From Tetradesmus obliquus (lineage: Eukaryota > Chlorophyta > Chlorophyceae > Sphaeropleales > Scenedesmaceae): a stretch of 64,000 nt of DNA. The DNA lies in assembly GCA_030272155.1 (NCBI GenBank), contig CP126191.1:9756501-9820500 (forward strand), read 5' to 3'. A model generated the notes under the pieces. That model had not been told where the DNA came from. It searched no databases and worked only from the letters and a program-made list of their open reading frames with translations. A program made the translations under genes and the position numbers. Of this stretch, positions 18,529 through 60,604 are shown piece after piece (position 1 is the first letter of the stretch; the number at the start of each line of letters is the position of its first letter).

Positions 18529-18530
18529 TC

Positions 18531-18562
<32 letters not shown>

Positions 18563-21555: not shown

Positions 21556-21589
<34 letters not shown>

Positions 21590-22091: not shown

Positions 22092-22144
<53 letters not shown>

Positions 22145-24158
22145 GCAATGTGTCCGCAGCACCACCTGCTTGAGAGGTGAACGATGCTCTGCGGGATGAA
22201 ACTGCTGACACATTTGCCAGGCTGCCGCTGCTGCTGTTGCCCTTCTTGCTGAGCGCTGCCTGCAGTTGAGCAGCAACAGGCAGCTGGCTTGCAATTGTCC
22301 AGCTGAACCCTGCTGGCCTGTGCCTGCTGTGTGCCTCTAAGCCACCAGCAGCTGCTGCAGCTGACACGCTAGTGCTAGACCTTGCAGGAACAGCCAGGAT
22401 CTCCCTGCACTCGCTGCTGAGCAGCGCCGCCCGTACATGCTGTGTCTCTATGGTTGCCTGCGCCAGCCCATAGGGCGTTGTGATGGACAGCTGCAGTGCA
22501 GCAGGGCCCTCAGCAAGTCGGACAGGGCATGACAGGTCGTCCAAGGTTATCTCAGGCTCTGCAGACACTGCAGAACCCCCAAGCTGGCTGCTTGCTGCTG
22601 TTTCGGCTGCTGCCGGTCCTGCACTGCTCCCTGCTGCTTGCAGGAACGCGCCCCACCTTGCAGGAAGTGGCACAGCGCAGCCCCAGCCAGGTGCTACACT
22701 TGCCCACGGCATACAGCCTGCTGGGCTTGCAGGAACAGCTGCCAGCGCTGCTGCTGCACCTGCTGATGACTTGCTGCTGCTGCCGCCGCCTTGCTGGCTT
22801 GCTGCATGGCCAGCCTCAGTGCCACAGGCATCTGCAGGAGGGCTTCCACCCCAGCTTGTGACGTAGCAACTGCCATTACTGCTGCTGCCACCGCTGCTGG
22901 TTGCTTTGCTGCAGCTGTACCCTGCCGCTGATGCTGTGCGCCGGCGGGTTTCCTGCAAGGGCACAGCCTGGCAGCTGACTGGCTCACAGCGGAACCCGGC
23001 ATGCAGGCCCTGGCTCAGCCACTGCTGCGCTGCTGCGTGCTGAGCACGCTGGAACAGCAGTGCTGCTGCTGCTCTGTGCGCAGCTGTAGCATCCTTGAAT
23101 GACAGCGTGAAGGCCTCGTAGCTGACTTTCAGGGATGTAGGGGCTCCTGCAGGCACAGGCAGGACTGCTGATGCAGCTGCAGCTGCAGCTGGGGAACTTC
23201 TGCTGTTGGTGTCGCTGCTGCCTTCACTAGCGACACTGCCTGCCTCTGACTGGCTGATGCTGGCTGCACAGGTGCTGCTGCCTCCAGCGAGGCTGCTGCC
23301 TGCAGGAACAGAGAGGGTGTGCAGGCTGGTGCTGATCCTTGCCTTGCTGATGCTGCAGCTGTGCTTAATCTTGATGCTGTTGGCGCCAGCCACAGACACC
23401 TCCAGCAGCTGCAACAGTCGGCAGATATGCGGCCGGGTTAAAACAGCAGCAGAAAAGGGTGGAAGTGAACAGGCTGACAGTGGCACAAGCCTTTGTTCGC
23501 TGTGTGTGTGCCTGCAGCCTTATGTTGCTGCCAGTAGACGATATCGTGTTGTGGCTCAAAAGGAAGGGAATGTCAGCAGGTTTATGTGCATGTTTTGACT
23601 CATGCAGTTCACCTCTGAGTATTGTATGTGCCTCAGGACAGCCGCTGCTGCTGTAGTTGCTGTGGCATTGTTGTCCGCATCGCCATTGCTAGCTTGGGTT
23701 GCTTGCAGCACCAGCAAGTCCGTGCCTTGGAGCACCAGCAACGCCTGCCTGACTTTGGGTGCAAGCAGCCTGCAAGGCTTGAAGTCTGCTTCTGCCACAA
23801 ACAAGGGCCTGCATGGCAGGGGTGGTTGAGCAGCACAACTGTCTTGCCAAACCTCCTGGAATACAGTTGCAAGGAGGACCAATGCAGGCGGTGCAAGCCC
23901 AACAGGGTCCCAATAAACATTTATTTGCACTGCTTTGCTGTTTGAAGCAATTGGAGCAGGGGTCAAGCTAACCTGCTGCTACCATCTGAGAGCCAAGCTG
24001 TCTTGTTCCTCGTGTTGACAGCGGCAGCACCGGCCTGCACAGATAAATGATATTAATGGAACCGATTTCGTTAAACAGTCATCAGGTGTGTATAAAGGAC
24101 GCATCAGGCAGCCACTCACAGTTGGGCCAGGCGAGCCCTCTGCTACAGTCTGCTCCAT
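18529..24158 (-). CDS. CRAL-TRIO (Sec14-like) lipid-transfer protein with internal membrane segment and PH-like N-terminus
   Basis: Coding exons in transcript order: 24158-24120, 24034-23976, 23808-23613, 23408-21040, 20809-20617, 20384-20336, 20070-20012, 19657-19553, 19193-19072, 18733-18529; phases agree, about 1131 aa. The last ~250 residues are a Sec14/CRAL-TRIO domain: FERPVPYHTAV, then IFDLEGFKLSMV, FVQYYPERVHAAFVINAPRW and FLDANTKSRVMVV. Such domains bind phosphoinositides, tocopherols or other lipids in a closed pocket. The big exon 4 is mostly Ala/Ser-rich, with a hydrophobic stretch at about residues 660-702 (two short helices or one long one) suggesting membrane anchoring. Residues ~35-200 alternate short beta-like strands (LLVLQGTDLLVLQ, EVSVAGANSIKIKH, YEAFTLSFKDATAAHRAA) in the manner of a split PH domain; this is inference. 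The ATG at 24158 opens a short first exon and is the weakest part of the model. The protein ends in ten Gln. Confidence 0.82.
19645..19765 (-). repeat. Duplicated acceptor edge of a CRAL-TRIO exon
   Basis: The intron/exon border at 19657 (on the plus strand gcgcagccacctgcaggcag...) is echoed at about 19727-19763 (gcgcagcaacctgcaggcag...), roughly 80 bp upstream in the transcript and still with an AG. Confidence 0.65.
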
Positions 24159-24886
24159 AGTCACCCGCGCGCCGCCCTCATTGTATTATTTGCGAGGTAA
24201 CAAGCTACCTGTTCTACTAAGATTGCTTGGTCTGCAACAATGCGTGCAACTGTCCTACTGATGATAATACAAGGGTTTCGGATCCGCGATGCAGGAAGGA
24301 CAACAAGCTCACTAGCTCAGCTAAGCTGCGCAAAAGGATATCAAGAAAAGCCATACTTTTGCAGCACCTTATATGGGGTTTTAAGGTCTTATACACAGTA
24401 TACAGGCAGCCTCTGAGCTTTTGCCACGTGGTGGAGGCTGCTGGTGCACTGTGTGCACAGCTGACCCTGACAATGACTGCAGCACCTAGTACGCCCGGCT
24501 GCACATGTCAAGACAGCACCCACATAAACCGCATGATCGATGTTGAGATCAAGAAACTTTCCAGGGAAGTGCACGATCTTGCATGGAGCGTACCCGCCAC
24601 TATTGCAGAGATTGCAATCACTTCAGGCCCTTGGCATGCATAACTTCTCAGGCACTGGACACACCAACCAACAAGACCGACAAGCATACATTAATAATGT
24701 TACGATAGGGTACCTGAAACGCTTCAGCTCTCAGGGCTATGCCGCACGGTGCTGGGACAAACATGTGTCAGCTGAGCAAGCACAATGGAGCAGTGCTCCT
24801 CCTCCGCCCCCTCGTGCTTTCTCCACTGGGGCACGGGGCGGATGGCGACGTTGCTATGGCTCAAATGGTGACATATTGATGATGTG
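24159..24886. other. Intergenic, between the desaturase-like and CRAL-TRIO genes
   Basis: Both neighbours are on the minus strand, so this should hold the 3' UTR of the upstream gene and the promoter of the CRAL-TRIO gene. No TATA box is seen at a suitable distance on the minus strand, and no gene is recognised. Confidence 0.35.
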
Positions 24887-25453
24887 TCAACTGAGCGGCA
24901 CTTCACGTTTGAACACCCAGCCAAAGCACGCAGCGCGGCCTCTGTCTCGCCTCCTCGCCTTGAGCTTCCCCTCCAGCTGCAGCTCAGACAGCCGCCGCAG
25001 CATAGCTGGCATACTCAGCAGCTGCCGCACAGCTGCACTGCTGGCACTGGCACTGCCGGGCCCTGCTGCGCGTGACACCTGCAGTGCACCAGCATCAACA
25101 CACCACGTTGCACCGAGTCAGTGTGGCGTCCCTAAACATGCTACGCGAGCGCCCTTGTCTCTTTTGTCTCTCTGCAGCCGTTGCTCCATTGTTGCTGAAC
25201 ACAAAGACAAGCACTGAGATCTGCGGGCTCTGACAAAGATCAACAAATAACAACAAGAGAACAAATAACCCTGGGGCCTCACCTGCCAGACTTTGCAGCA
25301 CTGCTCCACAGCTGCCGCCATGTCACTGACAGTCCAGATGCCCAGCGCATCTGCAGCAGCCATGAAATCAACATACAGCTGCGAGCAGCAGCGCGCATCT
25401 GCACTTTGCTCAGGGGCTTGATCCGTGTTCGCTTGTTGCTCCAGGTGCTGTTT

Positions 25454-25493
<40 letters not shown>

Positions 25494-28014
25494 ACTGGCT
25501 GTTGTTGTTCAGCAGGCTCACTGCTGCCTTCCGTGCTGCTGCTGCTGCTGCTGCTGCTGCTGCGTGGCAGTTGTGTGGTATTTCCTGCCTGGTGCCAGCC
25601 GTCATCCATCCTGGCACCTGGCAGCACCACACCCTGCTGCACCACCCCTGCAAGCGCCTGCACTGCTCCAGCAGCATCAGCTGCAAACAGCTTCGACACG
25701 GCAGACACCTGCGGGCATTCAGGATTTGCAGGAGTGCAGTATTACAAGCATGGCAGACCATCTAGGTTCTTACCAAGCGTCACTGACATTCACCTATATC
25801 AGGAGGAAGCTGCAGGACATGACCACGCTGCAAGACATAACGCCACAGCAAGCAGCATGTCAGCGAGCAAACTCTGCAGATGTTTTGACAACAGTCGAAC
25901 CCACTGATCTCAAGCTGCAACAAAACACAACAAGGGCTATAGACAACACCAATCCAATGCCAGCGTCACTCACCAGCGCCACCTCATGCCTCCCCTCGTC
26001 TGTTGCAATCGCAGTCGCCATGCGCGCCAGGTGTGCTGCACCATGGTATGCAGCCACAGCAGCAAGGTTGGTGAACATCACCCGGCTCATGCGCACCTGG
26101 CAGCAACCGCAATAACACAGCAACACCAGCAATCATTAGAAGCAGCATCAACACAGTGTGTTTTCATCAGCAGGTTGCTGAGGTGGACTTGGCACAAGCC
26201 CTTGAGTTGCGCAGACAGCAGCTCCGTTACCTGCCTGCCTCACACTTGGCTGTTAGTGCTGGCAGTAGCTATATAATCTCTGGTAGCCAAGCTGCCTCTG
26301 ATGCACCGCCATCAACGATGGAAGCCACAGCCATGTGCAGTAAGCCTCGAACTTGCAGTGCCCTGTGTGCTGCTAGCCCCAAACCTGTCCTACCCTACTT
26401 CTCAACGGCTTGCCTCATTCCCACCTGCATGGCGTTGTGCATCAGCTGCTGGTAGGGTAGCCGGCTGCCACTGTCGCAGCCCGCGCCAATCGCAGCCTGC
26501 ACCGTGACGTCCAGCGCCCTGCCGTCGATGCAGCCGCACAGGTAGCAGTAGGACAGCAGCAGCTGCCGCTGCTTGTTGCGCTCTGCTGTCCAGCTGCGGC
26601 GCCACCTGCGCCGACAGCAACACAGCAAAAAGACACTCATTGGGCACCTGTAACGCAGTGTGTGCCAGCATGCTGCCGCACCTTGTCACTGTCACTTACA
26701 AGGTGCCGCAGCACCAAGTCATATTCATACCATCCAGAAAGGTGCCAGGACCCACATGTAACTATCCTCTCTCATATTGTTCAGCAGGTTGCTGCATCTC
26801 GCTACCCATCCATTGCAAGCAAGCCCCTTCCCAGCTGCTGCTACACAATACTTTCCCTCTGACCTGTTGACATTGAACTCTGTCGACTGCCTCACCTAGC
26901 CCACGGCTGTGTTGCGATGTCATCCGCGCCACTCTCATCCCGCAGCGCTGCTGTGCCGCACCACTGGGACAGCTGGTTGGGGGCGGTGGAGGCCACAACT
27001 GTCAAGCCAGCCTGCAGCAGAAGCACAGTGGCAGCAGCAGCAGCAACAGCGGCAGCTGCTGGATGGCGTGCCACGGTGGGAAGCGCCATGCATCGCGCTG
27101 GCATCTGTTTCAACCAGCCGACAACCAATGCAGCTGCTGCCACACATACTATAACAGCCATAGCGAGGGTGTTGCTGTTGCGCTGCGTTGCTCACCAGCA
27201 CCACCAGCACCTCACTGTGCAGGGTCTGTGCCTCCTCCCGCAGCTCAGCCAGCTGCACAGCAGGCACAGCAGCCGCAACAGCCACAACGTCAGCATATGC
27301 TACCAGAAGAGATGCTTATCAAATGTATTCTAGTAACACTTGAGTTGGGTGCCGTGTGCTGCATGTACTGCGTTGGCTCTGTCAACTTAGCACGCCCTGC
27401 TCCTTCTGCTGGATGTGCAAGCTGAACTAAAGGCTCCTAAATCAAAGCAGGCATGCCCAGCAGTGAAGGTAAACAAAGCACAGCCACCAGCCGTGCAGAA
27501 ACAAACACATGCAACCAGCAGCGAATGACGTAGGCAAAAGGCCCAAACAATCACCTGCTGCAGGTATGCGTCGCCGCTGGGGTCTGGCAGCAAGTCTGAC
27601 GGCTGCCACTGCTGCTGGCCAGGCAGCACATAGCGCGGCAGCTCCACAGCTGCCCAGGAAGTGAGCCCCTGTCGAGTTACAAAGCATCAGCATGTTTAGC
27701 TTTTGCTAGTATGCTGAACATGCCGAGCCAATAGTGTGCTTGCAGCTGCTGCAGTACAGCACGAATGCTTGCATATGGCTCACCTGAACCACTGCGACCT
27801 GCTTATCAAGCTGCTCCTGTACATAAGCAGCAGGATCGCTTGCTGTGCTGTCGTCCTGCTGCTGCTGGCCTCGGCGTCTCGGTTTCGTCCAGGTTGCTGC
27901 TGCTGTGCCGCTGGCTGCTGCTGCTGACCGCCTACGCGTGTTGTTGCACGAGGAGCTGCTAGCAAATCCAATATTATATGTACTGGCGGGTGTGGCTACA
28001 CATGTGGCCAGCAT
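24887..28014 (-). CDS. Diverged acyl-ACP desaturase homologue, probable pseudoenzyme
   Basis: Coding exons in transcript order: 28014-27784, 27668-27555, 27252-27196, 27011-26896, 26605-26425, 26096-25974, 25708-25283, 25078-24887; phases agree, about 479 aa. The N-terminus (Ser/Ala/Arg-rich, few acids) looks like a plastid transit peptide. Collinear with plant FAB2/stearoyl-ACP desaturase: WQPSDLLPDPSGDAY (WQPQDFLPDPASDGF), ELREEAQ, RDESG, WRRSWTAERNKQRQLL (WTRAWTAEENRHGDLL), ATDEGRHE (AADEKRHE), ALGIWTVSD (RLGVYTAKD). Of the six castor iron ligands only E229 and H232 remain (E267, H270). E105 aligns with A141, E143 with R182, H146 with Q185 and E196 with V234. The diiron site therefore should not form and desaturation is unlikely. 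A ~60-residue Ser/Gln insert sits in exon 7. Frames and splice sites are intact, so it does not look like a decaying pseudogene. Confidence 0.9.
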
Positions 28015-29049
28015 GGCTGGTAGATACTCGGAGAGTTGCTGTCAGGACGACACCTGCTTCGGCAGCAAGCACGGGCTCGTGATCACCTTCTGCACCTAGA
28101 ACATGGTGCGACGGTTCCCGTGCTCGACAAGCTTGCGCCAACCTTGAGTGTGGATGCGCTTGTGATGCCTGACAGGCAATGTCATTCATCCAAGCCCTAA
28201 CAGTCACTTGCAGCGAAATCACCACGCTTCGCTGCGTCAAGCGATGCATGTGCAAAATTTCCAAACTATTTATTCAACGTACAGAAAACTCATTTTGTTA
28301 AAGGCATGCACATGCAGGAGAGCCAGAAGTTCAATGCTCAACGCTGGGCTGGATATCCTGCCCTGAACTGTGTCACAGAACAATCATCGCGTGAGGGTCA
28401 CTTTGCAGTGATTCACGATCAATGAAAGTTGTGTCAACACACCTGGCACGCGTCACCCGTACAATCTGTGCAGCACCACCAACACCCCACCAAGTTGGGC
28501 ACAAATGGCCACTGCACTGAGGTCAGCAGCCCCACGCACAATCATCATATGCAGTGCATAATTGATGGACAGGTATTTTGTGCAACTGGCAGCGTAACAC
28601 CACTCTGTCAGCATATACAGTGCTATCGTCGTGTGCCAGTCCTAGCACACACAGCTGTGCCAGCAACATTGGACGTACGCGAAGAGCTGCGCAAGCCGCT
28701 TGCAACAGGCTGCTGAACACTACTGCGCTACAGCGTGCGTCGGCTGATCACTTTCGTGTAAGGCATGCCAGACGGCCTGCACAAGTACAGCAGCAAGAAG
28801 TGACAGGGCAGTGTCAGCAAAGCGTGCGCTAATAAGTGAGATAGACCGTTTGCGCAATTGCTGCCATAATAGCAGTCGCCAGTCGGCTGCAGCAGTGTGT
28901 TGTCAGCAGCGCAATGCAACTCATACGGCCATACACAGCTATGCAGCATCCAGCAAACCTCATGCAAGGCCCTGCCTGCCTGTGCAGCTGCAGCCACAGC
29001 TTTAGTCCTCCGCTTGCATGTTCAATGAAAACTGATGTAACCTCCATGT
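28015..29049. other. Intergenic, between M14 peptidase and desaturase-like genes
   Basis: Holds the promoter and 5' UTR of the desaturase-like gene and the 3' UTR of the peptidase gene. No further gene or repeat recognised. Confidence 0.35.
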
Positions 29050-32000
29050 CTATACCTGCACCCACCGTGTGACGATGTACATCAGCACTCCCATGCCGCC
29101 AAGCCCCAGCAGCAGCGGCACCAGCCGGTTGCTGTGCAGCAGCACCCAGGCAGCGCTGCCATCCTCTTCATCATTGGCTCTATAGATCCGCTTTATCCGA
29201 ATCTCTTCTTCAGTCGTGTTGTCTGCTGCCTGCTGCTGCTGCTGCTGCAGCAGCTCCTCGGCCTGCCTGTCTGTGTCCTCTTCTTCTTCTACTTCTACTG
29301 CTGGCTCCTGCGTGTCTGAAGCAGCAGGCAGTGGCGGCACTGCTGCTGCTTCTGCATTGCTAGCAGAAGCCGGTGCTTTCGACACCCGGTCTCCCGCTTG
29401 CTGCTGCTGCTGCTGCTTCTGCTTCTCCTCCTCATCCTTCTGCGGTGACTCCTCCTGCTGCTTGGAATCCTGCGGCTCTTGCTGTGCTGCTGCTGCAGGA
29501 GGCGCTGCCTTCGCTGCCACTGGCAGTGCTGCTGCGCCACCCTCAGCCTCCGCCTCAGCTGCGGCTGCTGCAGCAGCACCAGCAGCATCCTCCTTTGCCA
29601 GCGGCACGTTGCGGAAGACCGGCGCCGTCGCGGGGTGCGTTGGCAGCAGCTCAAACAGCAGCAGCAGCGCCTTGACCCACATGCCCACCACCTCGTCAAA
29701 CTGCTGCTGCCCCAGCGGGTTGAACATGCGGAAGCAGTCCTCAAAGGTGGCCTTTTCATCGCCGTAGATCTCCCAGGTGAAGGACATGGGCACGCCCAGC
29801 ACCTCGTACATGTAGTCGGTGCCGGTGCCGTGCGCCAGGTACCTGCGTTCCGGGCGGTGCAGGGTGGTTGTGAGGTGTGTGAAAACACTGTACATGTAGT
29901 CAGTGCCGGTGCCGTGCGCCAGGTACCTGCGTTCCGGGCGGTGCAGGGTGGTTGTGAGGTGTGTGAAAACACTGTACATGTAGTCGGTGCCGGTGCCGTG
30001 CGCCAGGTACCTGCGTTCCGGGCGGTGCAGGGTGGTTGTGAGGTGTGTGAAAACACTGTACATGTAGTCGGTGCCGGTGCCGTGCGCCAGGTACCTGCGT
30101 TCCGGGCGGTGCAGGGTGGTTGTGAGGTGTGTGAAAACACTGTACATGTAGTCGGTGCCGGTGCCGTGCGCCAGGAACCTGCATTCCGGGCAGTGCAGGG
30201 TGGTTGTGAGGTGTGCGAAATCACTGTATGTGTAGTCGGCGCCGGTGCCAAGTGCTAGGCACCTGGGTGGCGGGTGGTGTTTGAGAATGTATGTTGTTGG
30301 AAAATTGAAAAGATGGGTAAGTGCAGGGGTGTCGAAACATTATTACGACACCTCTGTGTGCCTATACATGTACCCGGAGCCGGCGCCATGAGCCACGCAG
30401 GTGTGTAGCAAATCATGGGTGCAGTTTGACATCAGCAGGATGCAGCATCACGACACCAGACTCGTGTACAGCTGCCTATGCTCTGGCAGTTTGTCTGCCC
30501 ACAACATGTGCCAGCAAGCACACACAACATGAGCCGCCACACGCACCCGACAGAGTGCCCGCCTGAGCCCACCACACACTGCGTGCATGCCAGCTCCTTT
30601 ATGCGCTGCAGGATGCGCGTCGCTGCGCGTGCATCGCTGGTGTTGGGCACGATCGCCTTGTGGTCGTAGGGCGTGAACAGCGCGTACATGCCGCTGTGCA
30701 CGTTGAGCCAGGTGTGAGGCTTGAGCTCCTTGGCCAGCGCCAGCAGGATCTGCACCTCAGGCTCGCTGCAGGGGGCAGCAGCGGCAGCAGCAGCAGCAGC
30801 GAACCATGTGTTGAATACCATGTCTCAATTCAGATTGGAACAGCCAGTACAGAAGCTTATGGCTTTTTGCACCAAAGCAGCCTGCTGTGCTGTGCGGCTG
30901 CACACACATCTACACCCAGCACAGCGTGAGCTGCCATACCTGCAGCAAGGCAGCCACGCATCTTGCCCAGCACAACGCAGCACAGCTCATCCCAGAGCCA
31001 GCCACACATGCATTCATGACGCCTGGCAGGGGGACTCCTCTGCCGGGCTGTAGTCCTTGTCCAGCTGCGCTGTGCATCACTTTAAACGGCACAGGCCCAA
31101 CCAGCAGCACACCTGTGCAGCGCCTTGCCCGGGTATACCATTGCCGGCTGCAGTCCTTCTCCTGCTGTTCCCATACCACTGCTGCGCTGTGCAGAATACA
31201 CAACTCAAAACCCGGCACACTCCACACTAAGCAGCAGCGCACCTGTGCGGCGCCTTGCCCGGGTACTCCTCTGCCGGGTTGTAGTCCTTCTCCTTCTTGC
31301 CCCAACCATTGCAGGTACTAAAGCAACATGCACACGTAATACACCCAGCACACGCAAAATCCACCAGCCCACCTGTGCGGCGCCTTGCCTGGGTACTCCT
31401 CTGCCGGGTTGTAGTCCTTCTCCTTCTTGCCCCAGTCGATGCCCCAGTTTCGGTTGGTATCCACGCCGCGCCCGTTCTTGCGCTCACACAGCTGCCCAGC
31501 CTCAACCAGCTCCCGCCCATTCGTGTTCTCCATGGGCAGGATCTGCAGGGGTTGGAAGATGGAACCATGAGGTGCAGCCCGGCGCGTGTGCCGCAACCTC
31601 GTGCCAAGCTTGTACACATGCAGTGTGGAACATGTGCAGCAACCTGCCATGTCTCTGCAGATGCTGCACCCGGATGTGGCACCATGTCAGCCAAGTGCTG
31701 CAAGGCTGGTCAGGTGCCGAAGGGCGCAGCACAACAAGCCAGCTGCTGCGGTGTCCATGCTGAAGCCGTCATGAGCGACGACCGCCGGGATGCTGTGAGG
31801 ACATTGGAGCAGCAGCACAAGCCAGCCCCCCATCACAACAGCACAGCAGGCGCACCTTGAGCACCGTCTGCTGCAGGATGGCGGTGAGCCGCTCCACGCG
31901 CTGCCCCGGCCCCGTGATGTTGCGCAGCTGCTGCGGGTCTGCCAGCACCTGCAGCAGCCGCAGCCCCACCTCGCTGCTGATGAACTCGCGCCCGTGCTCG

Positions 32001-33363
32001 CCAAAGTCCTGCAAGCAGCCAAGAGGCAGTGACAGCGGCAGCAGCGACACATCGAAACACTACAAGTTTAAACTGTGCTTGTGCAAACTTGTACTTGTTT
32101 GTGTTGTTTTGTCCTGGCTGCAGGGCCAGGAGTGCAGCAGTGCGGCTGATGTGCAGTGTGGTGCACTGGTCATGACGGCATGAGAGGCAGAGGCATCATC
32201 CTGTTTGCTTTGCTGCAAGGACCGCTGGCTTTTGGAACTGCTGCTGATGCTGAGGGAGTCTGAGTGGCGCACATGCTGCCGCTGCCCGGCTGAGCTGCTG
32301 CTGGTTTGGTAGAAGCACACAACACACGCCACCCCCCCTGAGCAATTGCTGCTGCTGCTGCTGCTGCTGCGGCCGTCTGTGCAGCTGCTGCTTACTATGA
32401 GCACCCGGGCTTTGGTGGAGTGTGCGGGGGTGAGCCCCCCAAGCTCCACAGTGACCACCTGCAGCATCAAACACGCAAGAAGCACTGCAGCTGGGTGCGA
32501 ATTCACACACCTAAGCATACAGAAGCAGCACCAGTACACACAGAAGCGAACTGTCCGACTGCTGGTTGTGTTGCAAGCTATAGCCACCACATGCTTAAGC
32601 GCTGCTTGAGGGCTGCTGCATGCGGCACAGTGCTGTGCCAGGACTGCTTGGCTGCGCGATGCTGTTGCAGTACTGCTGCTGCTGCTGCTGCTGCTTTGCT
32701 TGCGTTGCACCATCCTGCACAGAAGCATGTCAGTAGCGCCAATTGCATGCGAGCTTGCCCCAGGTGCCGGCTGGCAACCTCAAATGCTAGCATGTGCAAG
32801 CATACCCCTCCTGTGTGGCCCGACCATTCGCCCTGCCCTTTCAGACTGGAGCACTGTGCCAACTGCTTTTGCCTTCTCACTATTGCTGTGATGCTGTAAG
32901 CTGACAGAAGTCATGACAGCTTTTGGCCCATGCATCAAGTCACAAGTCACATAGCTGCTGTAAAGCTGAAAGCCCTCATGGAATAGCTGCTCGTGTGCTT
33001 TGGTCAGTACTGCCACACACTGCGATATGTATCTCAGAACACCGTGCAAGCTGCATACCTGTATATCTGCCCTGTAATCCCCGTCCTGTGCATGCCGTAT
33101 CTCCATCTTCATTATGTCTGGGTTGGCGGCAACCAACCGCTCAACCTTCTTCAGCAGGTCATTCCTGCAGGAGCATGCAACTGTCAGCTGCTGAGCACTG
33201 CTGACCTGCAGCATACTGCTGTGCTTGACTCTGCTCACTTCTTGAGGTATATACTGTAGTCGGGTTTTGCCAGGTCCGCTGCATTCCCAGCTGAGGTCTG
33301 CAGTAGGCTAGCTGCAACAAACAGGGACAGCAGTAGCAGCTGCATGCAGCCGCGCTGCCCCAT
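29050..33363 (-). CDS. M14 zinc carboxypeptidase with signal peptide and C-terminal membrane anchor
   Basis: Coding exons in transcript order: 33363-33239, 33164-33059, 32458-32396, 32008-31856, 31542-31373, 30765-30580, 29842-29050; phases agree, about 531 aa in the shortest form. The N-terminus is a signal peptide (MGQRGCMQLLLLSLFVAASL). All M14 landmarks are present: zinc motif FGEHGREFISSE (HxxE), substrate-binding GVDTNRNW, the zinc His in LNVHSG after SEPE, and the catalytic Glu in SFTWEIYGDE. The tail is Ala/Glu/Gln-rich and ends with a single hydrophobic helix (LVPLLLGLGGMGVLMYIVT), so the catalytic domain is probably lumenal or extracellular and membrane-tethered. It should trim C-terminal residues from peptides; substrate class cannot be told. 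The last exon is preceded by a ladder of in-frame 84-bp repeats, each with an acceptor, so longer forms with extra 28-residue repeats are possible. Confidence 0.92.
29811..30314 (-). repeat. 84-bp in-frame tandem repeat over an exon acceptor of the peptidase gene
   Basis: About six units, starting at 29811, 29895, 29979, 30063, 30147 and 30231, exactly 84 bp apart; the outer ones are diverged. Each carries on the minus strand an acceptor (ggaacgcag|gtacctggcg) and the exon start encoding YLAHGTGTDYMY. Because 84 is a multiple of three and no stop intervenes, splicing to an upstream copy adds 28 residues per unit. Confidence 0.9.
31020..31435 (-). repeat. Degenerate copies of a peptidase exon end in the following intron
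   Basis: The end of the GVDTNRNW exon (31373-31435) is repeated at about 31242-31303 (nearly identical, donor kept), 31110-31165 (degenerate) and 31025-31060 (fragment). Confidence 0.8.
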
Positions 33364-33699
33364 GGGGCCTCAGCTGCAGGGCCCTAACCCAGCAGTACTC
33401 TATGACTTGTGAATAGCTTCATACAATGTCAACATCAAGGATGTGCGACCTGGTTATCAGGTTGGCCTGAGGTTGCTGGGCCGAGGCAAGACAGCAACTG
33501 AGCAGCAGAAAACACAGCGGGCGATGTTACTGGGCAGAGCGTTGTACGTGATGAATGTGCAATTTTGTTTACACGAACGCAACGTGCCAGAACGTTCTGC
33601 ACTGCAAAGTGTTCGGAACTCTGAGGAACTGAAGACAACTGCCACTTTCACTTTGGTGTGACACATGCTCGTAACAGTAGTCCAAGGAAACGGGCTTCC
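33364..33699. other. Divergent intergenic region upstream of the M14 gene
   Basis: Lies between the minus-strand peptidase start and the plus-strand small ORF. Contains AGAACGTTCT (33589-33598), a perfect two-unit heat-shock element pattern (nGAAnnTTCn), with GGAAC-like half sites just after. Confidence 0.35.
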
Positions 33700-33975
33700 A
33701 TGAACCGCATTGTTTCTGTGATAGTGGGCGTTCTAGCAGCTGTTCTAGGGCCTCAGGGTACCACCGCACGTCCGCTACCAATGCTTGCCCGCACTGCAGC
33801 CAAAAGAGACTTGCTCGATCGCGTATTTCTCGCCTTTTTGACAGGTAACCTAGTGTTTGCTGGGGTTGCTGTGTTCAAGGAACGCGGAAAGACTATGAGC
33901 GAAGATCAGCTGCTGGCACGCCTGGAAGAAGAGCAGAAACAGGCCCATCAGAGCAAGGAACAGCAGGGCAATTAA
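33700..33975 (+). CDS. Possible small single-pass membrane protein, 91 aa
   Basis: An ATG at 33700 opens 91 codons ending in TAA. The N-terminus is hydrophobic with some basic residues. A second hydrophobic helix (VFLAFLTGNLVFAGVAVF) is followed by a charged coiled-coil-like tail (SEDQLLARLEEEQKQ). Composition is unlike the random frames nearby, which lack such organised segments. I do not recognise a family. It could also be the start of a spliced gene. It sits between the divergent M14 and EHD genes. Confidence 0.35.
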   Translation: MNRIVSVIVGVLAAVLGPQGTTARPLPMLARTAAKRDLLDRVFLAFLTGNLVFAGVAVFKERGKTMSEDQLLARLEEEQKQAHQSKEQQGN

Positions 33976-34489
33976 GCAATAGCCTGGCGACGAGAGGTTC
34001 GCAGCAGGTAAGCTGACAACTGTACTGCATAACTGCTGTCGTGGTTGCAGACAGGACCCAGCTGGCCTCGTTGGAGCTTCTCGGTTGCTCCCCTGCATCT
34101 GCATGTGCAGCCATAATCAACCGCAGTGTGCTAATCTTCATCGATCTGGCACGTACACGTCGCCTGAAGTCTAGCCTGGGCACCGTTGTTGAGTAGGTCA
34201 GGAACTGCTACCACTGCAGCTGCGCTGCTGTGATCCCAGTGCATGCACCTTGCTTCACCTGTTGCTGATATCGAGTGTACAAGGACATCATAACCTCCCT
34301 TTTCCACGGTTACTGCTGCATCATCCCTGCTTGCAGACCTTGAGCCCAGCAACAGCGCGTTGCAGGCAATTTGTGGCAGCGGCAGCAACAGCACTGCATT
34401 AAAGCATTGCAGCACAACAGCGGCAGCAACAGCTCACTTCCACCGGCAGTAGCTGCCGGCAATAGCAAGCAACAGAGCAGTGCAGCATC
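33976..34489. other. 5' flank of the EHD gene
   Basis: Presumed promoter and 5' UTR of the EHD gene. No TATA box, RNA gene or other feature recognised. Confidence 0.35.
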
Positions 34490-35615
34490 ATGAGCGCCAT
34501 TGCCAATGCAGCCACCTATGACAGGTGGTTCAAAGTGGCAGACCAAGACCAAGATGGCCGCGTGACAGGCCCAGATGCAGTCACGTGAGTTATTCTGCGT
34601 GTAATTACTGAGCTTCTTGTGGCTTATGGCTGGTCTAATGCAGTGCAAAACGTATTGTGAATGAGTTCGGCACTTGGTCTCTGGCAGCACAGAGGCAGCA
34701 GAGGCCGGCGGTAGTGCTATGGCCACAGCACTCAGTGTGCATAGGTGTACAATGTGCAGCGAATGACAGCTGACAGAAGCGTGTACACTTGCTTGCCAGC
34801 AGCTTGCTGCGTCAGCATTAGCGGCGGCGCGTTTTGCGCACACAGCAGTTGCACCCATGTTATGCATTGCAATTGGCTGGCACCGCCACATGCATGCGCC
34901 TGTGCTCGAACCCCAAACACACCGCTGCTCCTGCATCATCGCTTTGCACATGCTGATAACGCTGGTGATCCTGATGATGTTGGTGCAATGACGGTGTGGC
35001 CCGTCTTTCCCCCTTTTTTTGAACTCTGAAGCTTCTTCAAGCGCTCAGGTCTGCCAAAGGAGATGCTGGCAAAGGTTTGGGAGCTGGCAAACAGCTCAAG
35101 AGCAGGTGAGCTGCCCGGCTCAATGACACACAGTTGCAGTGTGTCGCATTGCGGTGCGGTGCGTGTCAGGCGTCAGCTGTGCAGATGCCGGTGTAAATTT
35201 GTCCGGCTAGTACCCCCGCCGACGGTCCAGCCCTTGTGTTCAGCACTGCTGCTGTTTGGTTGGCGATGTCTGAGCATGAAACCGCATATGCACGTGCCGT
35301 GCTGCCGCCTTCATGCAGGATTCCTTGACAGACTGGCCTTCCACAAGGCAATGGACCTCATCAGCATTGCACAGTCGGGAACAGACATCACCAGGTGCGG
35401 GGCCGCTGCTGCCGGTGATGCTGCCGTGCTCTGGCTCTTGTACTGAGCACGCACCTGCACATCTGCAGTGTTTGCTGATGCCACCAATGTCCGCAGCGCA
35501 CTGCGCCGCAGACATAGCCTACGCATTACAGCAAACCTGCGCTGCCTTGGCGGCCGCTGTCTGCTCTCGCAGTTGGTGTCACACTGGACATCCCTGACGC
35601 GATTGCTGCCGCCGC

Positions 35616-35651
<36 letters not shown>

Positions 35652-38600
35652 AGGGACAACTACCTGGCAGCGCTGGAAGCAGGCATTGCGCTGCCCCACA
35701 TGGAGGGCCTGGACGGGCTCACAGGTGCAGCACCAGCTGCTTACACTACTGTTGCAGGCTGCATGCCACTCCTGCCAGTGTGTCAGAAGCAGCAGCAGCA
35801 GCAGCAGTGTGCTGGCTCCTTGCCAGCCATTCTTGCTTGGAACTCCATAAGACCTCGCCTCATGTGTCAGCTTCTTCCGATCCCAACAGCAACTGTGCTA
35901 GAATGCGCGAAACTCCCTGCAGTTACTGTTGTGGTGAGTGTGACATCACTGGTGTCCTGTCTTGCACTTGCAGGGTCGTCTGGAGGCGCCTACCCTGCTG
36001 CTGTGCCGGCCTCAAATGGAGGGGCTGCGCCTGCCGGGGCGCCCCGCTCGCCACGCACCACATCTGCAGGCGCCTCCGCTGCAGCAGCAGCCAGCAGCGA
36101 CATGCCGTCGCCCCGCAATAGAGTGAGCGCAGCAGAGTGAAGCAGACGCAGCTGCGGCCGCATGTTTTGCATGCAGCTCGTGTGTTGCTTGCTGTGTATG
36201 TGCCTGCCATCTTTGCACAAATACCTCGCCTGGCTGTCGGTGCGATCAGGACCACGCCAGCCGCATGGCCATTAGCACAGCCCTGATAGCGTTTGATTTT
36301 CCACCTCCCTTCCTGCAAGCTGGCGAGTTGATTTGCTTCTGTTGGTTTGCTTAAGCTGGCGTGCTTTGTGCTTACAGCCCCTGCCGCTGCCTTGTGCCTT
36401 GTGCCTGCAGGCGCCGCCGATGGAGCAGCAGGCAGCGTCGCATGGCGGCGCGCGGATGAGCCTAGGTGGCAAGAGCATGAAGAAGCCGGTGTCTCCCAAG
36501 CTCGTCACATCCATCATTGATGGGCTCAAGCAGATCTACTTCAGCAAGGTGGCTGCCGCTGAATGGCTGGATACCTATGACTTGCTTTTTGGCTTGCCAG
36601 CTCTTGAGCTTGTATTACTTGGCTAAATGACACATGCTCAGACAGCCACGCATTGCCTGCAGACAAACAGCATGAGCTGGTGATGCTGGGTCAGTAAGCT
36701 CCTGCAGCAGCTGCACCTCACGTCACTTTGCAAATTTGTTGTCCAATTGAATGCCTCTGCGCGTCTGGCGCCGCCCCGCAGGTGCGCCCGCTGGAGGACG
36801 CGTTCAAGTTTGGCTCCTTCTTCAGCCTCACGCCACTGCTCTTATGCACTAGTGCAGTACTGTTTCATTGCATCCCTCTGCTCCGCTGGCGCCGCCCAGC
36901 AGGTGCGCCCGCTGGAGGACGCCTTCAAGTTTGGCTCCTTCTTCAGCCCGCTGCTGCACCTCACGCCACTGCTCTAATGCACTGTTTTACTGCGTCCCTC
37001 TGCTCCGCTGGCGCCGCCCCGCAGGTGCGCCCGCTGGAGGACGCGTTCAAGTTTGGGTCCTTCTTCAGCCCGCTGCTGCACGAGAGCGACTTTGAGGCCA
37101 AGCCCAGCGTGCTGCTGCTGGGGCAGTACTCCACGGGTGAGGGCAGCAGAGGGTGCTGTAGGCCTTTGTAGGCCTTCTTGAATTTTCACACACCTGGCTC
37201 AGCGGTTGGGTTTCCCATTCACAGTTTTATTGCTGCTGGGGCAGCATTCCACGGGTGAGGCCCACAGCAGCCTGGCCTGTTGGTATGCTGCTTTCGGTTT
37301 CGTGTGAAATCGCAGCAAAGCGCGCACATGCCTGCCTGGGGCAGTACTCCACGGGTGAGGGCAGCAGCAGCCTTGCCAGCCTAGGCGTATGCTACCTTTT
37401 GTGTCTTGTGTGCACTTGCAGCAAGAAGTGGGGCAGTACTCCACGGGTGAGGGCGGCGCTGCCCATGAACATGCTCAAGCCACTGTGGTCAAGCTGGGGC
37501 AGCGCCTGCGCCCTGACAAGTCTGCTGTGCATGCCTGCGCATCTGCTGCTGTTGGTTGCCTTGTGTACATGCCTGCTCTGCGTGCATGAGCGCGTGCGAG
37601 CCTATTGATGCTATTTCCCTGGCTGTGTGTGTGCAATTGCACAAGGAAGCTGCAGCAGCGCACGTGGCAGCGCGGCTCCGGCAGGCCTCTGCTTTGATTT
37701 GGCCAAGGGAGGGATGTGATCTGCGCCTGGTGTAGCTGGGGTTTTGGGTGAATTGCCAAGCACCCCACACTCCTGTTCAGTAGGTTGAGCTATCTGCTTG
37801 TGCTGTTGAGAACTTACTGACCATGGCGCACGAACCACCCCGCACAGCTGCTGCGCGTATGTTTGGCATATTTTAAGCTGGTGTGCTGTGCTGGCCTGCA
37901 GGCAAGACCACCTTCATTAAATACCTGCTGGGGCGAGACTACCCCGGCTGCCACATAGGGCCCGAGCCAACCACAGACAGGTAATTTGCCTGAGTGTGCA
38001 ATCACTCTGAGCTAAGGAACCAGCTGTCTGTAATTGCTCTCTTCTCAGAGTTGCACTGTGTTAGGTAGGGCGAGACTACCCCGGCTGCCACATAGGGCCC
38101 GAGCCAACCACAGACAGGTGCGCGGGGACACGTTGTTGACCTGCAGCTGGGGGCAAACTGCTGCCCGCTCAGCACGCACTGCTCTAGGGCACGCACTGCT
38201 CGACCAGGAATTGCGCAGCTGTGTGCGGTGCAGTGCTGGCAGCGGCTGCATATAACTTTGCGGAAAATACTCTGCCAAGGTCACATGCGTACGCAACGTT
38301 GCAGCGGGCTGCACGGTCGCAACGAATGCGTGTACATTAAGGACAGCGTACATGTATGTCTCGTGGCTGCCTTGCCACTGACCCTGGCGCCGCAGGTTTG
38401 TGGTGGTTCAGCGCGCCGCTAGGCAGTGCATGTGGCGCGTTGCGATCACCATCTGGCATCTGTATAGGTAGTTTTATCATGTGACTGCCTGTGCGCTGCT
38501 GGCCACAGGTTTGTGGTGGTGCAGGGCGCAGCTAGGCAGTGCATGTGGCGCGTGTGTCTTCAACATTTTGCATGTGTGTATTGCTCATTTGTGACTGCCT

Positions 38601-40968
38601 GTGTGCTGCTGGCCGCAGGTTTGTGGTGGTGCGCCCGTCTACTTTAGTGCAGCGCGCTCACACTGCACCGTGTGTGACCTGTCGATCGGTTCACACCAGC
38701 TTCTTTGTGGCTGCTGCTGACCTAACTCTGCCGCAGGTTTGTGGTGGCGCAGCACGGGCTGGATGAGCATTCACCATCTGGCATCTAACTATGTTTTTTA
38801 TATGTGGCTGCCCCTGTGCTGCTGGCCCCGCAGGTTTGTGGTGGTGCAGCATGGGCTGGAGGAGCGCCGCACGCCCGGCAACACGCTGGCGGTGCAGCCC
38901 GACAAGCCCTACCAGGGCCTCAGCCAGTTCGGCACAGGTGGGGCTGCTGCTGCTGCTGTTTGCTGGTGACGGCTGGCATGTATTTGACAGCAGCACATGA
39001 GGAATGCATGCAAGGCAGCACAGCACAGCATGCACGTGCCTTCGTGGCTTGATGTGCTCGTGGCACTGCCGCATATCAATGTATTCCTTGCCATCCCATG
39101 CACACCCTGCCACATCAACGCCATGTGTGGGTGTTTAATCGTGTGTGTTTCTGCGTGTGTGGCTGTACAAACAACACACAGGCTTCCTGTCGCGCTTTGA
39201 GGGCGCTTCCTGCCCCGCGCCGCTGCTGGACAGCATCACGCTGGTGGACACGCCAGGCGTGCTCAGCGGCGAGAAGCAGCGCATCGAGCGCAACTACCAG
39301 TTCATCGACGTGTGCGAGTGGTTCGCGGTGCGCTCCGACCTCATCCTGCTGCTGTTCGACCCCTACAAGTGAGCTGTGGCGAGACGTGTGGATCAGTACA
39401 GTGCAAGGATGCAGGCTGTAGTGACGGCTGTGAGTGTTGCGTCAGCACCAAGAGTGTGCGCTCCGACCTCATCCTGCTGATGTTCGACCCCTACAGGTGA
39501 GCTGCGCTGGGACCTGAGGATGTTAGGGTTGTACAAGGGTACAGGCTTTGGCGACAGCTGTGAGGCACTGCGTATTGCCTCATCCTGCTGCTGTTCGACC
39601 CCTACAAGTGAGCTGCAATGACTTCTGGGGACGAGTAGAATCCAAGGGCTCAGGCTTGAGTGTCAACTGTTGTGGTGCTGCGTACTACTACACGTGCGCT
39701 GCAATGAGACCTGAGGATGAGTGGTTCAAGGGTTGTACATGAGTTCAGGCTTTAGTGGCAGCTGTGTGGTGCTGCGTATCGCCCAGACCTCATCCTGCTG
39801 CTGTTCGACCCCTACATGTGAGCTGTGCTGAGACACGAGGATGAGTGGTGCAAGGTTTCAGGCTCTAGTGACGTTTGTGAGGCACCTCGTACAACCACGA
39901 GTGTGTTGACATGTGGCACAAGAATTCGAACGGCTGGTCAGCTGATGGCAGACCGCACTGCTGCACTGTCCAAACTCTATGCATTCAATACCAATACCAA
40001 TACCAAAGTATGGAACGGACCCACCTCAGGCACAAGCCCAGCGAGCCGATCTACAGCTCATGAGGGTTCAACAATGGTGCACCTGTCACCAGCAAATTGA
40101 GTTAGCATCCGCACCTCCAAAGTTGCAATTGTACCATGGTGTCATCTCCTGTGCTCACCTGTGCTGTGCATCCTCTGCGTGTGTCATGCACGCTGCCCTG
40201 TGCAGGCTGGAGTTACTCCTGCCCCTGCTGCTGTGCTGTTGCTTGTCAAGCTGATCTTTGTGGTGTGCCCCATCTGTATGCGTGATGTGCATGTGTCGTT
40301 CACCCCTTGCAGGCTGGACATCAGTGATGAGTTCAAGCAGGTCATCAGCACACTGCGGGGGCACGACGATAAGGTGGGAGGCGGCTGCAAACAAACATAC
40401 AATTTCCATGTAGATGCAATTTGCATACAAGCAGAACAGTCAGCCATGGGGGTTGCAGGCAGCCTGCATGGAGTCACACCAGTGATGAGTTCAAGCAGGT
40501 CATCAGCACCCTGCGGGGGCATGATGATAAGGTGGGAGGCGGCTGCACGCAATCATACAAACCTATAGTTTGTTTCAGAGCACAACAGTTAGCCATGCTG
40601 GCAGCAGGGGTTGCAGACAGCCTGCTGAAAACTCCATGTTAACAGCCTGCTTGCAGTCGTGCCATTGACAGCAGCCAGCTGAAGGTTCAGAAAGCAATGG
40701 CTTGCAGATCTTGGACTCCTTCTGGCACTGCGATCAGCATATCGAGGACATAGCTGGGCTGGCTGCTCGAGCAGACCTTGCATTCCTGCTGGCACTGCCA
40801 CTAGCTCGTCACAGCTGGGCTGGCAGCATCCTGAGGTCAAAGCTGGGCTGGCCACTTTAGCAGCTGAAGTGGGGCCTTGTTGGTGGTCAAAATAAAAGTT
40901 TAAGCACGCCGCTGGAGCGCGTGCTGCACCCTGCGTCTGGCTGAACATCAGCACCATACATTGATGTC

Positions 40969-41048
<80 letters not shown>

Positions 41049-41606
41049 GCCACCTGTCTAGGTGCGCATCATCCTGAACAAGTCGGACCAGGTGGACCAG
41101 CAGCAGCTGATGCGCGTTTACGGCGCACTCATGTGGAGCCTGGGCAAGGTCTTCAAGAGCCCTGAGGTCTGCAAGGTGAGCCACCGCAATGCAGCCGTGT
41201 GGGCTGCCCAGCCGCATTTAATCATGTGTACCATCGATGCAGAGCCTGGGCAAATCCTTCAAGAGCCCTGAGGTCTGCAAGGTGAGCGCCACAACTCATG
41301 AACAAAGTGCAGTGGGACAAAACAGCCCAAACACCTGGCAGGTGCCCCCAGCCTGTTTAGGGACACCCTAACAGGACACAGCTGGCAGTAGACGTTGTTA
41401 CTGTCGGTGCTGCCCCCAACCTTTGCCGCCTATCGCCTGCCCTGGCGCGCTATGTCTTCAAGCCACGGAGCACCGCGCCACCCTGCCGTCACCGCTGACT
41501 CATGCTTCATGCTTGCCGCTGCTGCTGCTGCTGCTGCCGCCTGCCAGGTGTACATCGGCAGCTTCAACAGCGAGGGGCCATCAACATGCTTACTTCTTGC
41601 CGCCGC

Positions 41607-41640
<34 letters not shown>

Positions 41641-41739
41641 GCCTGCCAGGTGTACATCGGCAGCTTCAACAGCGAGGCACCCATCAACATGCTTACATCC
41701 TGCTGCTGCTGCTGCTGCTGCTGCTGCCGCTGCTGCTGC

Positions 41740-41773
<34 letters not shown>

Positions 41774-41830
41774 GCCCGCCAGGTGTACATCGGCAGCCTC
41801 AACAGCGAGGCGCCCATCAACATGGTTACA

Positions 41831-41897
<67 letters not shown>

Positions 41898-43035
41898 GCC
41901 CGCCAGGTGTACATCGGCAGCTTCAACAGCGAGGCGCCCATTGACGCAGCCAAGAACCCGCACTGCGTGGAGCTGTTTGAGAAGGAGCAGGCGCAGCTGC
42001 TGCACGACCTGTACGAGATCCCCAGCCGCTCCTGCGACCGCAAGGTGCGATGCTGACAGCTGAATAGCCAGCACATGCGGCTGTGCGGTGTGTTGAAGTC
42101 AGCTGGATGATCACTGGAGGGGCGGGGAGGTAGTGCACGTAGCTGTACTGCATGGCGTGCCTGCCACTCAATTTGACAACCGAATGCAACATGATACTTC
42201 TGTTGCGCGTGGCTGCAAGTGAACGAGTTTGTCAAGCATGTGCGCACATGTGGGTTATCCTCTCTCAACCAAGTGATGCTGACGTCATCACTCGCTGCTT
42301 GCATTGCCTGCGCAGGTGAACGAGTTTGTCAAGCGCGTGCGCGCCTTCCGCATCCACCTGCTCATTATGGGCCACCTGCGCGCCAACATGCCAGCCATGT
42401 TTGGCAAGGATAAGGCGCAGCGCAAGATGCTGGAGCGGCTGCCAGAGATCTTCTTCCAGGTGGGTTAGACGGCAGCCAGCAGCGACGCAGCAACGTGGCA
42501 GCAGCAGCAGAAGGTGTGTGGGTGGGGGGGGGGCAAGCATACAGCGCAAGATGCTGGAGCGGCTGCCAGAGATCTTCTTCCAGGTGGGTGAGCCGGCAGT
42601 CGACAGCAAAGCAACAGCGTGGCAGCAGCATGGCAGCAGCAGCAGCAGCAGGCAGGCATTACAGCAACGCACCAGCAGGGCAGGGAAGACAGAGAGGCAT
42701 GTACCAGCTTGCATGCTTGCCTGCCAGCCTGCCTGCTGTGAATGAGCTGTCACACGTGCTGCCCTGCTCAAATTATCCATCCAACAAGCTTAAAGCTGCT
42801 GCCGCTGCCGCTGCTGCTGCTGCTGCTGCTGCTGCCGCTGCTGCTGCAGGTGCAGCGCGAGCACCACCTGCCTGCGGGCGACTTCCCTGACGTGGTGCGC
42901 TTCCGCGAGATCCTGTCTGCCTTTGACTTCAGCGTGTTCCCCAAGATGGGCAAGAGCATGCTGAAGCAGATCGATGACGTGCTGTCAGTGGATGTGCCCA
43001 ACCTGGTGCGCGCGTTTGACAACCCCTACCAGTGA
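34490..43035 (+). CDS. EHD1: EHD-family dynamin-like ATPase with N-terminal EH domain
   Basis: Membrane-remodelling ATPase of endocytic recycling; plant and algal EHDs carry the EH domain at the N-terminus, as here. Coding exons: 34490-34584, 35032-35105, 35319-35394, 35654-35724, 35974-36122, 36411-36548, 37025-37136, 37902-37980, 38834-38937, 39182-39368, 40313-40373, 41062-41175, 41907-42044, 42316-42459, 42850-43035; phases agree, 575 aa. The EH domain (residues ~8-95) contains an EF-hand loop DQDQDGRVTG and the WxLA-type helix KVWELANSS. A Ser/Ala-rich linker follows. The ATPase has P-loop GQYSTGKTT, TT switch PEPTTDRF, DTPGVLSGEKQR and NKSD. The C-terminal helical part (FPKMGKSMLKQIDDVL) is complete and the protein ends NPYQ. 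Introns around almost every ATPase-domain exon contain tandem copies of the adjoining exon edge, listed separately. Confidence 0.95.
36753..37078 (+). repeat. EHD exon 7 start repeated three times
   Basis: The acceptor and first ~45 bp of exon 7 (cgcag|gtgcgcccgctggagg...) occur with exon-like starts at 36782, 36903 and 37025 (the real one), spaced 121 and 122 bp. All three keep the AG acceptor. Confidence 0.92.
37108..37462 (+). repeat. EHD exon 7 end (P-loop codons) repeated four times
   Basis: The segment ggggcagtactccacg|ggtgagg recurs with donor GT at 37137 (real), 37255, 37355 and 37447. All four keep the donor. Confidence 0.9.
37928..38118 (+). repeat. EHD exon 8 end duplicated
   Basis: About 50 bp of exon 8 from gggcgagactaccccggctg to the donor recur intact in the next intron; donors at 37981 and 38118. 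Confidence 0.92.
38386..38860 (+). repeat. EHD exon 9 start repeated five times
   Basis: The acceptor plus gtttgtggtgg occurs with copy starts at 38396, 38509, 38619, 38736 and 38834 (real), spaced 98-117 bp. All have AG. Intronic sequence between copies is also similar (gcatgtggcgcg, gtgactgcctgtg). Confidence 0.9.
39337..39900 (+). repeat. EHD exon 10 end repeated four times
   Basis: The segment ctcatcctgctgctgttcga through the donor and gagctg recurs, with donors at 39369 (real), 39497, 39608 and 39818. Intervening intron sequence (ggctttagtggcagctgtg type) is repeated too, including one unit without the exon part. Confidence 0.9.
40313..40560 (+). repeat. EHD exon 11 with donor duplicated
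   Basis: Most of exon 11 and ~20 bp of the following intron recur 158 bp downstream (donors 40374 and 40532) with few changes; the copy lacks the acceptor side. Confidence 0.9.
40971..41045 (+). repeat. (CTG)25 microsatellite just before an EHD exon
   Basis: Twenty-five uninterrupted CTG units end 16 bp before the acceptor of exon 12, in the position of the polypyrimidine tract. Confidence 0.95.
41133..41290 (+). repeat. EHD exon 12 end duplicated
   Basis: About 45 bp of exon 12 and its donor recur; donors at 41176 (real) and 41282, with three changes. Confidence 0.9.
41518..41950 (+). repeat. EHD exon 13 start repeated four times, each behind a CTG run
   Basis: The block (CTG)n-gcccgccag|gtgtacatcggcagc...gcccatcaac appears with exon-like starts at 41548, 41650, 41783 and 41907 (real). 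All keep AG. Confidence 0.93.
42205..42592 (+). repeat. EHD exon 14: start and end both duplicated
   Basis: A copy of the exon start (gtgaacgagtttgtcaagc) lies at 42219, 97 bp before the real one, with AA instead of AG. The exon end (cagcgcaagatgctggagcg to the donor) recurs with donors at 42460 (real) and 42584. Confidence 0.9.
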
Positions 43036-52871: not shown

Positions 52872-60310
<7,439 letters not shown>

Positions 60311-60596: not shown

Positions 60597-60604
60597 TATA
60601 AAAG
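60597..60604 (+). promoter_or_regulatory. TATA-box-like TATAAAAG
   Basis: A consensus TATA box, followed at 60613 by an ATG-led frame too short and featureless to call a gene. It may be chance, or part of the DUF4211 3' UTR. Confidence 0.2.

Follow-up and report, generated by a model that had tools for sequence, protein, structure and literature searches.

Splice-junction echoes arranged in tandem within the introns of an EHD gene and a CWC22 gene of Tetradesmus obliquus

The closest precedent found for the arrangement described here is the RdRp gene of potato (Ma, Lan and Niu 2016, PMC4974935), where a tandem duplication ran across an intron-exon boundary, part of the upstream exonic copy turned intronic and the parent intron supplied most of the splice signals. 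The potato case was one event, which gave a new intron and placed an additional exonic piece in the mRNA. Related processes include Rogers-type intron gain, in which tandem duplication leads to the reuse of existing sequence as intron, introners, which add sequence within genes that is then spliced out (PMC9860276), and small tandem duplications arising at DNA breaks through CST-guided Pol alpha (PMC8355091). The present analysis concerns a stretch of 64,000 nucleotides from the green alga Tetradesmus obliquus (hereafter the window; GCA_030272155.1, contig CP126191.1, positions 9,756,501 to 9,820,500), in which the introns of an EHD gene contain repeated copies of the gene's own exon edges together with their splice sites, which are termed echoes. 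As in potato, a tandem duplication crosses the splice junction; in contrast to that case, up to four echoes were present per border, many borders were affected, no new exon was detected and the exon half of the copied unit was preferentially kept. While tandem duplication and the reuse of existing sequence as intron are shared with Rogers-type gain, no preference for AGGT was observed and existing introns were lengthened. Unlike introners, the sequence between echoes belonged to no shared repeat family that was found, and the pieces searched were single-copy. The likeness to CST/Pol alpha duplications lies in small size. No report of repeated splice-junction echoes was found among the titles and abstract openings listed in searches of an open-access library.

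The window lies within a contig of 11,144,458 bp (C1) of an assembly of 104.7 Mb in 17 contigs. Coding exons of the EHD gene were reconstructed from the DNA and the upstream exons were taken from a self-trained gene finder. Along its entire length the reconstructed coding sequence (417 aa) was 100% identical to P0001, an annotated protein of T. obliquus and its closest database match, with a protein of Scenedesmus sp. NREL 46B-D3 second at 93%. The model begins at 35063, and approximately the first 42 residues of P0001, encoded further upstream, lie outside it. The exons are as follows.

35063-35105, 35319-35394, 35654-35724 and 35974-36122, plus strand: EHD upstream exons, from the gene finder, in agreement by eye with P0001 except for one residue
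36420-36548, 37025-37136, 37902-37980, 38834-38937 and 39182-39368, plus strand: first to fifth of the last ten EHD coding exons, from translation and match to P0001 (the exon listed as 36420-36548 has its 5' end at 36411 in the full model)
40313-40373, 41062-41175, 41907-42044, 42316-42459 and 42850-43035, plus strand: sixth to tenth of these coding exons, from translation and match to P0001

Echoes were detected by self-BLAST and with an ungapped 26-mer probe (20 exonic and 6 intronic nt, match threshold of at least 18), and the length of each exon part was obtained by ungapped extension, which hides insertions and deletions. Twenty exon-edge copies with splice sites were found at 10 of the 26 modelled EHD borders, and 8 of the 13 modelled introns carried them. 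There were 1-4 copies per border, neighbours were spaced 92-210 bp apart and exon parts measured 14-57 nt, which bears out what the first-pass annotation, made from the sequence alone, had said of the number of borders, the copies, their spacing and the length of exon copied. The echoed borders were the acceptor of intron 36549-37024, the donor of 37137-37901, both ends of 37981-38833, the donors of 39369-40312 and 40374-41061, both ends of 41176-41906, the acceptor of 42045-42315 and the donor of 42460-42849. Individual echoes are listed below.

36782-36827 (46 nt exon part) and 36903-36959 (57 nt), plus strand: acceptor echoes of the exon at 37025, in units of 121-122 bp with intron halves still homologous
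37231-37254, 37336-37354 and 37429-37446, plus strand: donor echoes of exon 37025-37136, from self-BLAST, probe and extension
38068-38117, plus strand: donor echo of exon 37902-37980, identical at 52/52 nt including the GT
38396-38412, 38509-38524, 38619-38632 and 38737-38768, plus strand: acceptor echoes of the exon at 38834
39456-39496, 39578-39607 and 39786-39817, plus strand: donor echoes of exon 39182-39368
40476-40531, plus strand: donor echo of the small exon 40313-40373, covering 56 of its 61 nt
41242-41281, plus strand: donor echo of exon 41062-41175, 40 nt
41548-41579, 41650-41684 and 41783-41817, plus strand: acceptor echoes of the exon at 41907, each preceded by a CTG-rich tract
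42219-42245, plus strand: acceptor echo of the exon at 42316, 27 nt, its AG now AA
42542-42583, plus strand: donor echo of exon 42316-42459, 42 nt

The splice dinucleotide was intact in 19 of these 20 echoes, the exception being that at 42219, so the earlier statement that most echo splice sites remain intact was upheld, as was the copying of the small exon (56 of 61 nt). The description of echoes throughout the gene was correct for its 3' part, but five of the 13 introns probed were echo-free, namely introns one to four (213-288 bp) and another of 244 bp. Acceptor echoes were situated upstream and donor echoes downstream of the real exon as had been described, but this placement is expected from coding survival, because only the first donor or the last acceptor keeps the protein, and it is no test of mechanism, the probe having searched introns only. 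In the array of exon 39182-39368 an extra unit near 39693 retained its intron half, while its exon half was no longer recognisable. The 87 bp separating exon 37902-37980 from its donor echo had no detectable homology to the downstream flank of that echo and matched the genome at a single place. Long CTG runs were observed at 40970-41047 and 41514-41906 (26 perfect units, with more inside the acceptor-echo units), and are part of many trinucleotide runs in the window.

A sample of 304 kb was scanned with the self-trained gene finder and by local self-comparison, consisting of the window, 200 kb of contig C2 and 40 kb of contig C9, the latter two stretches being picked arbitrarily. The C9 stretch contained a second echo-rich gene, identified by homology search as the splicing factor CWC22. 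Its model of 13 exons was made by explicit spliced alignment, with the 5' end outside it, and carried 30 echoes at 15 of 24 borders; all 12 modelled introns were affected and the splice dinucleotide was kept in 27 of the 30. Nothing comparably echo-rich was found in the 200 kb of C2. In all other gene models together, 465 borders were tested and 20 scored, with a maximum of 3 per gene model (52 of 517 junctions were excluded as low-complexity probes), counts which are rough because the self-trained gene finder fuses some adjacent genes; some of these borders resembled minisatellites with periods of 31-35 bp. Echo-rich genes are therefore a minority. With a separate 36-nt probe run on all gene models, matches were obtained at 22 of the 287 junctions retained once short, edge and low-complexity probes had been excluded, versus 7 of 5630 control searches. 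The following array belongs to an uncertain gene model.

55612-56313, plus strand: eight acceptor echoes, spaced 85-109 bp, upstream of a predicted exon at 56363; gene model 52872-63487

Results for the EHD and CWC22 genes were pooled in the controls for chance and position. Probes matched within their own intron at 25 of 50 borders, compared with 11 of 1200 probe-intron pairs elsewhere. At the exon edge, 24 of 49 exonic 26-mers recurred in the intron alongside; the corresponding figures were 3 of 23 at 50 nt inside, 2 of 13 at 60 nt, 0 of 11 at 70 nt, 0 of 10 at 80 nt and 2 of 3 at 90 nt, some low-complexity probes being left out. Taken together, 47 of 95 edge probes (0-10 nt) and 14 of 91 interior probes (at least 40 nt) had copies (nominal Fisher p 9e-7, the overlapping probes being non-independent). 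Intron probes within 40 nt of a junction had copies in 11 of 101 cases, and deeper intron probes outside the exon parts of echoes in 114 of 555. A duplication spanning a junction must also copy the intron next to it, and this contrast between the exon and intron sides of the border poses the chief puzzle.

Several lines of evidence bear on the origin of the echoes. In 25 modelled introns of the two genes, intron length followed 313 bp plus 120.8 bp (standard error 17.4) per echo (r 0.82, Spearman 0.87), a relation that is not proof alone, as longer introns have more room for echoes. Neighbouring echoes were 64-312 bp apart with a median of 121.5 bp, and the close agreement of this spacing with the length gained per echo points to tandem units across a junction. 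The copied unit contained exon together with existing intron sequence, in direct head-to-tail order, and local repeats in the 304 kb were direct rather than inverted at 144:1 (at least 38 bits, at most 1000 bp apart and not low-complexity, with 145 of 241 rows surviving the complexity filter). Among 50 pairs of neighbouring copies, 21 retained homologous intron halves (empirical p<0.01), namely 7 of 25 involving the real site and 14 of 25 between echoes, while homology was undetectable in the other 29. Median intron-half length was 88 where homologous (22) and 84.5 where not (28; p 0.25), as if both kinds had a single origin. For six recent, nearly perfect duplications lying outside a coding repeat, the match extended over the period -2 to +4 bp, which suggests little or no microhomology. 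That short tandem duplications across splice junctions lengthen introns is thus well supported, and the earlier proposal of a short junction-spanning window, tandemly duplicated and left inside the intron, gains support from the 121 bp per echo and the 21 homologous pairs.

These data also bear on three further accounts of the echoes. The first-pass annotation had noted that most exon borders are AG|GT and had seen in this a fit to Rogers-type tandem duplication of an AGGT-bearing segment, by which introns are created or lengthened. AG preceded the donor at 10 of 13 echoed borders and 11 of 12 others, and while GT did follow the acceptor at 5 of 12 echoed borders, as that model would like, it did so at 4 of 13 others as well. 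The fitted length of an intron with zero echoes, 313 bp, was close to the 288-bp median of 259 other modelled introns. With an ordinary zero-echo length, an existing intron within the copied unit and no AG|GT excess, introns were lengthened and not created; neither a preference for AG|GT borders nor intron creation is supported, and Rogers-type gain is highly improbable here. Insertion of introners, or of filler DNA that brought a splice end along, would involve a long duplication of the exon edge as target; it would explain why the intron half beside the real site was not significantly homologous to that of the echo in 18 of 25 neighbour pairs, and why, among donor arrays whose flank had changed, the echo outscored the real site in four. 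It is nevertheless quite improbable: the intervening pieces formed no repeat family, no more than four weak matches (13-23 nt) being seen between them, the intron-half lengths were alike, and the five pieces searched all matched only themselves in the 104.7-Mb genome in a search that skips very common words, so that no introner was found. Tandem units of about 121 bp could in principle be mis-assembled, but most copies differ from one another, and an echo of CWC22 intron 7 is translated within the annotated protein P0121, which derives from a contig of 5,903,853 bp versus 5,902,500 bp here; an assembly artefact is accordingly barely credible.

The two halves of the copied unit differed strongly in their preservation, a property that was absent from the first-pass annotation and unexpected here. 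Between real site and echo (50 pairs) mean identity was 0.92 over 20 nt of exon and 0.59 over 30 nt of intron, against an unrelated baseline of 0.49; between echoes (37 pairs) the values were 0.895 and 0.62. Divergence was then calculated for 81 of 87 pairs, those with an exon part below 14 nt or an intron half below 25 nt being dropped. Where intron halves were homologous, pooled p-distances were 0.036 for exon and 0.195 for intron in 15 real-echo pairs, and 0.063 and 0.202 in 16 echo-echo pairs. Among the latter the exon distance was lower than the intron distance in 11 of 12 arrays with one tie (mean 0.069 vs 0.189, p 0.001). Where intron halves were not homologous, exon p-distance was 0.060 in 32 real-echo pairs and 0.056 in 18 echo-echo pairs. 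In five further arrays with homologous echo-echo intron halves, the exon distance was lower in 4.

The best explanation, to which we assign a probability of roughly 45%, is that short tandem duplications straddling a splice junction were followed by exon-limited exchange anchored on the real exon. A duplication whose window straddles the junction survives only if the splice site of the outer copy remains whole and functional; the first donor or last acceptor then remains in use, inner copies turn intronic, and the intron gains about 121 bp per event, all of which is well supported. The intron half of the unit would then diverge freely, while the exon half would stay tied to the real exon, itself held constant by purifying selection. 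The likeliest route would be repeated short exchange among copies, by repair resembling conversion, by template switching or by coupled gain and loss of units, and such exchange, needing local sequence identity, would end up limited to the exon half. This homogenisation step is inferred from the divergence patterns. A stronger version, in which exon edges are actively rewritten into the intronic copies by DNA-templated or even transcript-templated exon-limited exchange that keeps echoes in step with the live exon, is distinctly unlikely; if true, coding constraint would be projected onto non-coding DNA and whole genes would be lined with near-perfect spare splice junctions.

The most serious competitor is neutral tandem duplication with survivorship, perhaps in fast-changing introns, in which duplication strikes windows of about 121 bp at any position, windows over a junction persist if the outer site functions, and the junction-bound look arises because the real exon half is slow to change while intron halves are quickly lost from view. 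The ranges in length of the exon part (3-79 nt) and the intron half (43-160 nt, with a cap at 160) are compatible with random placement subject to a minimum amount of intron, and recent near-perfect duplications were present away from junctions as well. A neutral simulation was passed through the same detection filter as the data, under assumed uniform ages and one mutation rate; a simpler first simulation had allowed neutrality more room. Unrecognisable intron halves were commoner than simulated (observed 32 of 47 real-echo and 18 of 34 echo-echo pairs; simulated at most 39% and at most 18%), and exon distances in such pairs were simulated at 0.08-0.16 real-echo and 0.13-0.22 echo-echo against the observed 0.060 and 0.056, the simulated exon divergence thus being 1.4-4 times that seen, which speaks against neutrality. 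Further, there are seven arrays in which intron halves are shared among the echoes but no such sharing with the real site was detected. Over 213 sites, the exon halves of these arrays had 5 shared and 14 private differences, although the intron halves call for a long stem in common, so that the genealogies of exon half and intron half seem to disagree. The nearest echo was closer to the real exon in 6 arrays and the farthest in 5, with a tie in 3. The shared and private counts and the absence of an order effect favour refreshment of the exon half, although the counts are small. Several results weigh on the other side. Exon distances in homologous pairs (0.036 and 0.063) matched those simulated (0.03-0.06 and 0.03-0.09), which lowers the case for exchange and raises that for neutrality, and the intron distance of these pairs was about twice that simulated (0.20 vs at most 0.11), so introns mutating faster than simulated could explain part of the contrast. 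When intron halves were searched first, 41 of 76 hits fell off known echoes, many of them short or low-complexity; among hits of at least 28 nt outside the CTG array, a hand count gave about 6 places without an exon half, that half having been lost in some units, versus about 20 with one. The eight-copy array at 55612-56313 was reversed (echo-echo exon 0.133, intron 0.067), one array of C9 was near parity (0.174 and 0.185), and no conversion tract was seen directly in the echo arrays of this one assembly. Either the exon halves were refreshed, or the intron halves changed faster than assumed, or both; we consider the neutral account rather unlikely, though the strongest of the alternatives.

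With respect to splice-site use, the annotated P0001 is the echo-free reading of the EHD gene. For CWC22, protein P0124 gives an uninterrupted frame of 607 aa that spans all 12 modelled junctions without an echo, as judged by eye, and comes from contigs of at most 3,224 bp; the genomic introns at these junctions sum to 7,503 bp, so P0124 derives from spliced RNA. The echo-free state of both proteins indicates that the outer, real site is used. Selection could still retain echoes as working decoy splice sites, for example for control of intron retention, and echo sites do score like real sites even with a differing intron flank: on matrices from 205 C2 introns, donors with a changed flank scored 4.05 (9 echoes; background -3.59) and acceptors 3.37 (18 echoes; background -5.21). 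Selection as a reading of these scores is, however, weakened by the intron-half homology and by two other results. GT or AG was intact in 46 of 50 echoes, not clearly better kept than the 0.86 expected from exon bases, and exon halves beside the four dead sites remained similar (identity 0.80-0.95). Cassette or poison exons were rejected because partner sites were no better than random intron places (one-sided p 0.85 for 16 donor and 1.0 for 27 acceptor echoes), leaving no defined exon. Mismatches at codon positions 1/2/3 numbered 13/17/26, a bias that was not significant, and selection on the echoes at the protein level was rejected on this count. At third codon positions, 224 of 250 echo bases were the same as in the real exon, an agreement which decoy selection alone leaves unexplained, and we regard such selection as improbable. 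Recursive-splicing ratchet points were also rejected, GT after the acceptor (5 of 12 echoed, 4 of 13 others) showing no enrichment.

Annotated proteins provided further observations on CWC22. P0121 incorporates an intron 7 echo into its coding sequence, whereas P0123, P0124, P0125 and P0126 are without it, and its presence in P0121 is probably a mis-annotation. In exon 7 (C9, L029-L032) the real exon encodes V, while the echo, as read by the gene finder, and P0121, P0124 and P0125 have A; the echo may retain the ancestral residue. P0123, the CWC22 of Scenedesmus sp. NREL 46B-D3, has about ten extra residues exactly at the junction of exons 9 and 10 that none of the four remaining CWC22 proteins has; they may represent a further echo or an exon extended in annotation. 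In the EHD gene four echoes were called exons by the gene finder. Tandem repeats of coding sequence were also present in the sample, as given below.

29806-30249, within the minus-strand gene model 18529-32467: 84-bp tandem repeat of 5.3 copies, 97% identical, in-frame, repeating a 28-residue block in a predicted coding exon
25559-27976 in local coordinates of the C9 stretch, within gene model 24756-38695: 324-bp tandem repeat, 98-99% identical, bearing repeated exons

In practical terms echoes can mislead gene models, as the echo annotated as coding in P0121 and the four EHD echoes called exons demonstrate. The echoes constitute a closely packed natural set of junction-spanning duplications from which the lengthening of introns may be dated, and they pose the question of why strong decoy splice sites are tolerated. 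The same series could be used to determine whether purifying selection on an exon, acting through local exchange, holds non-coding copies constant.

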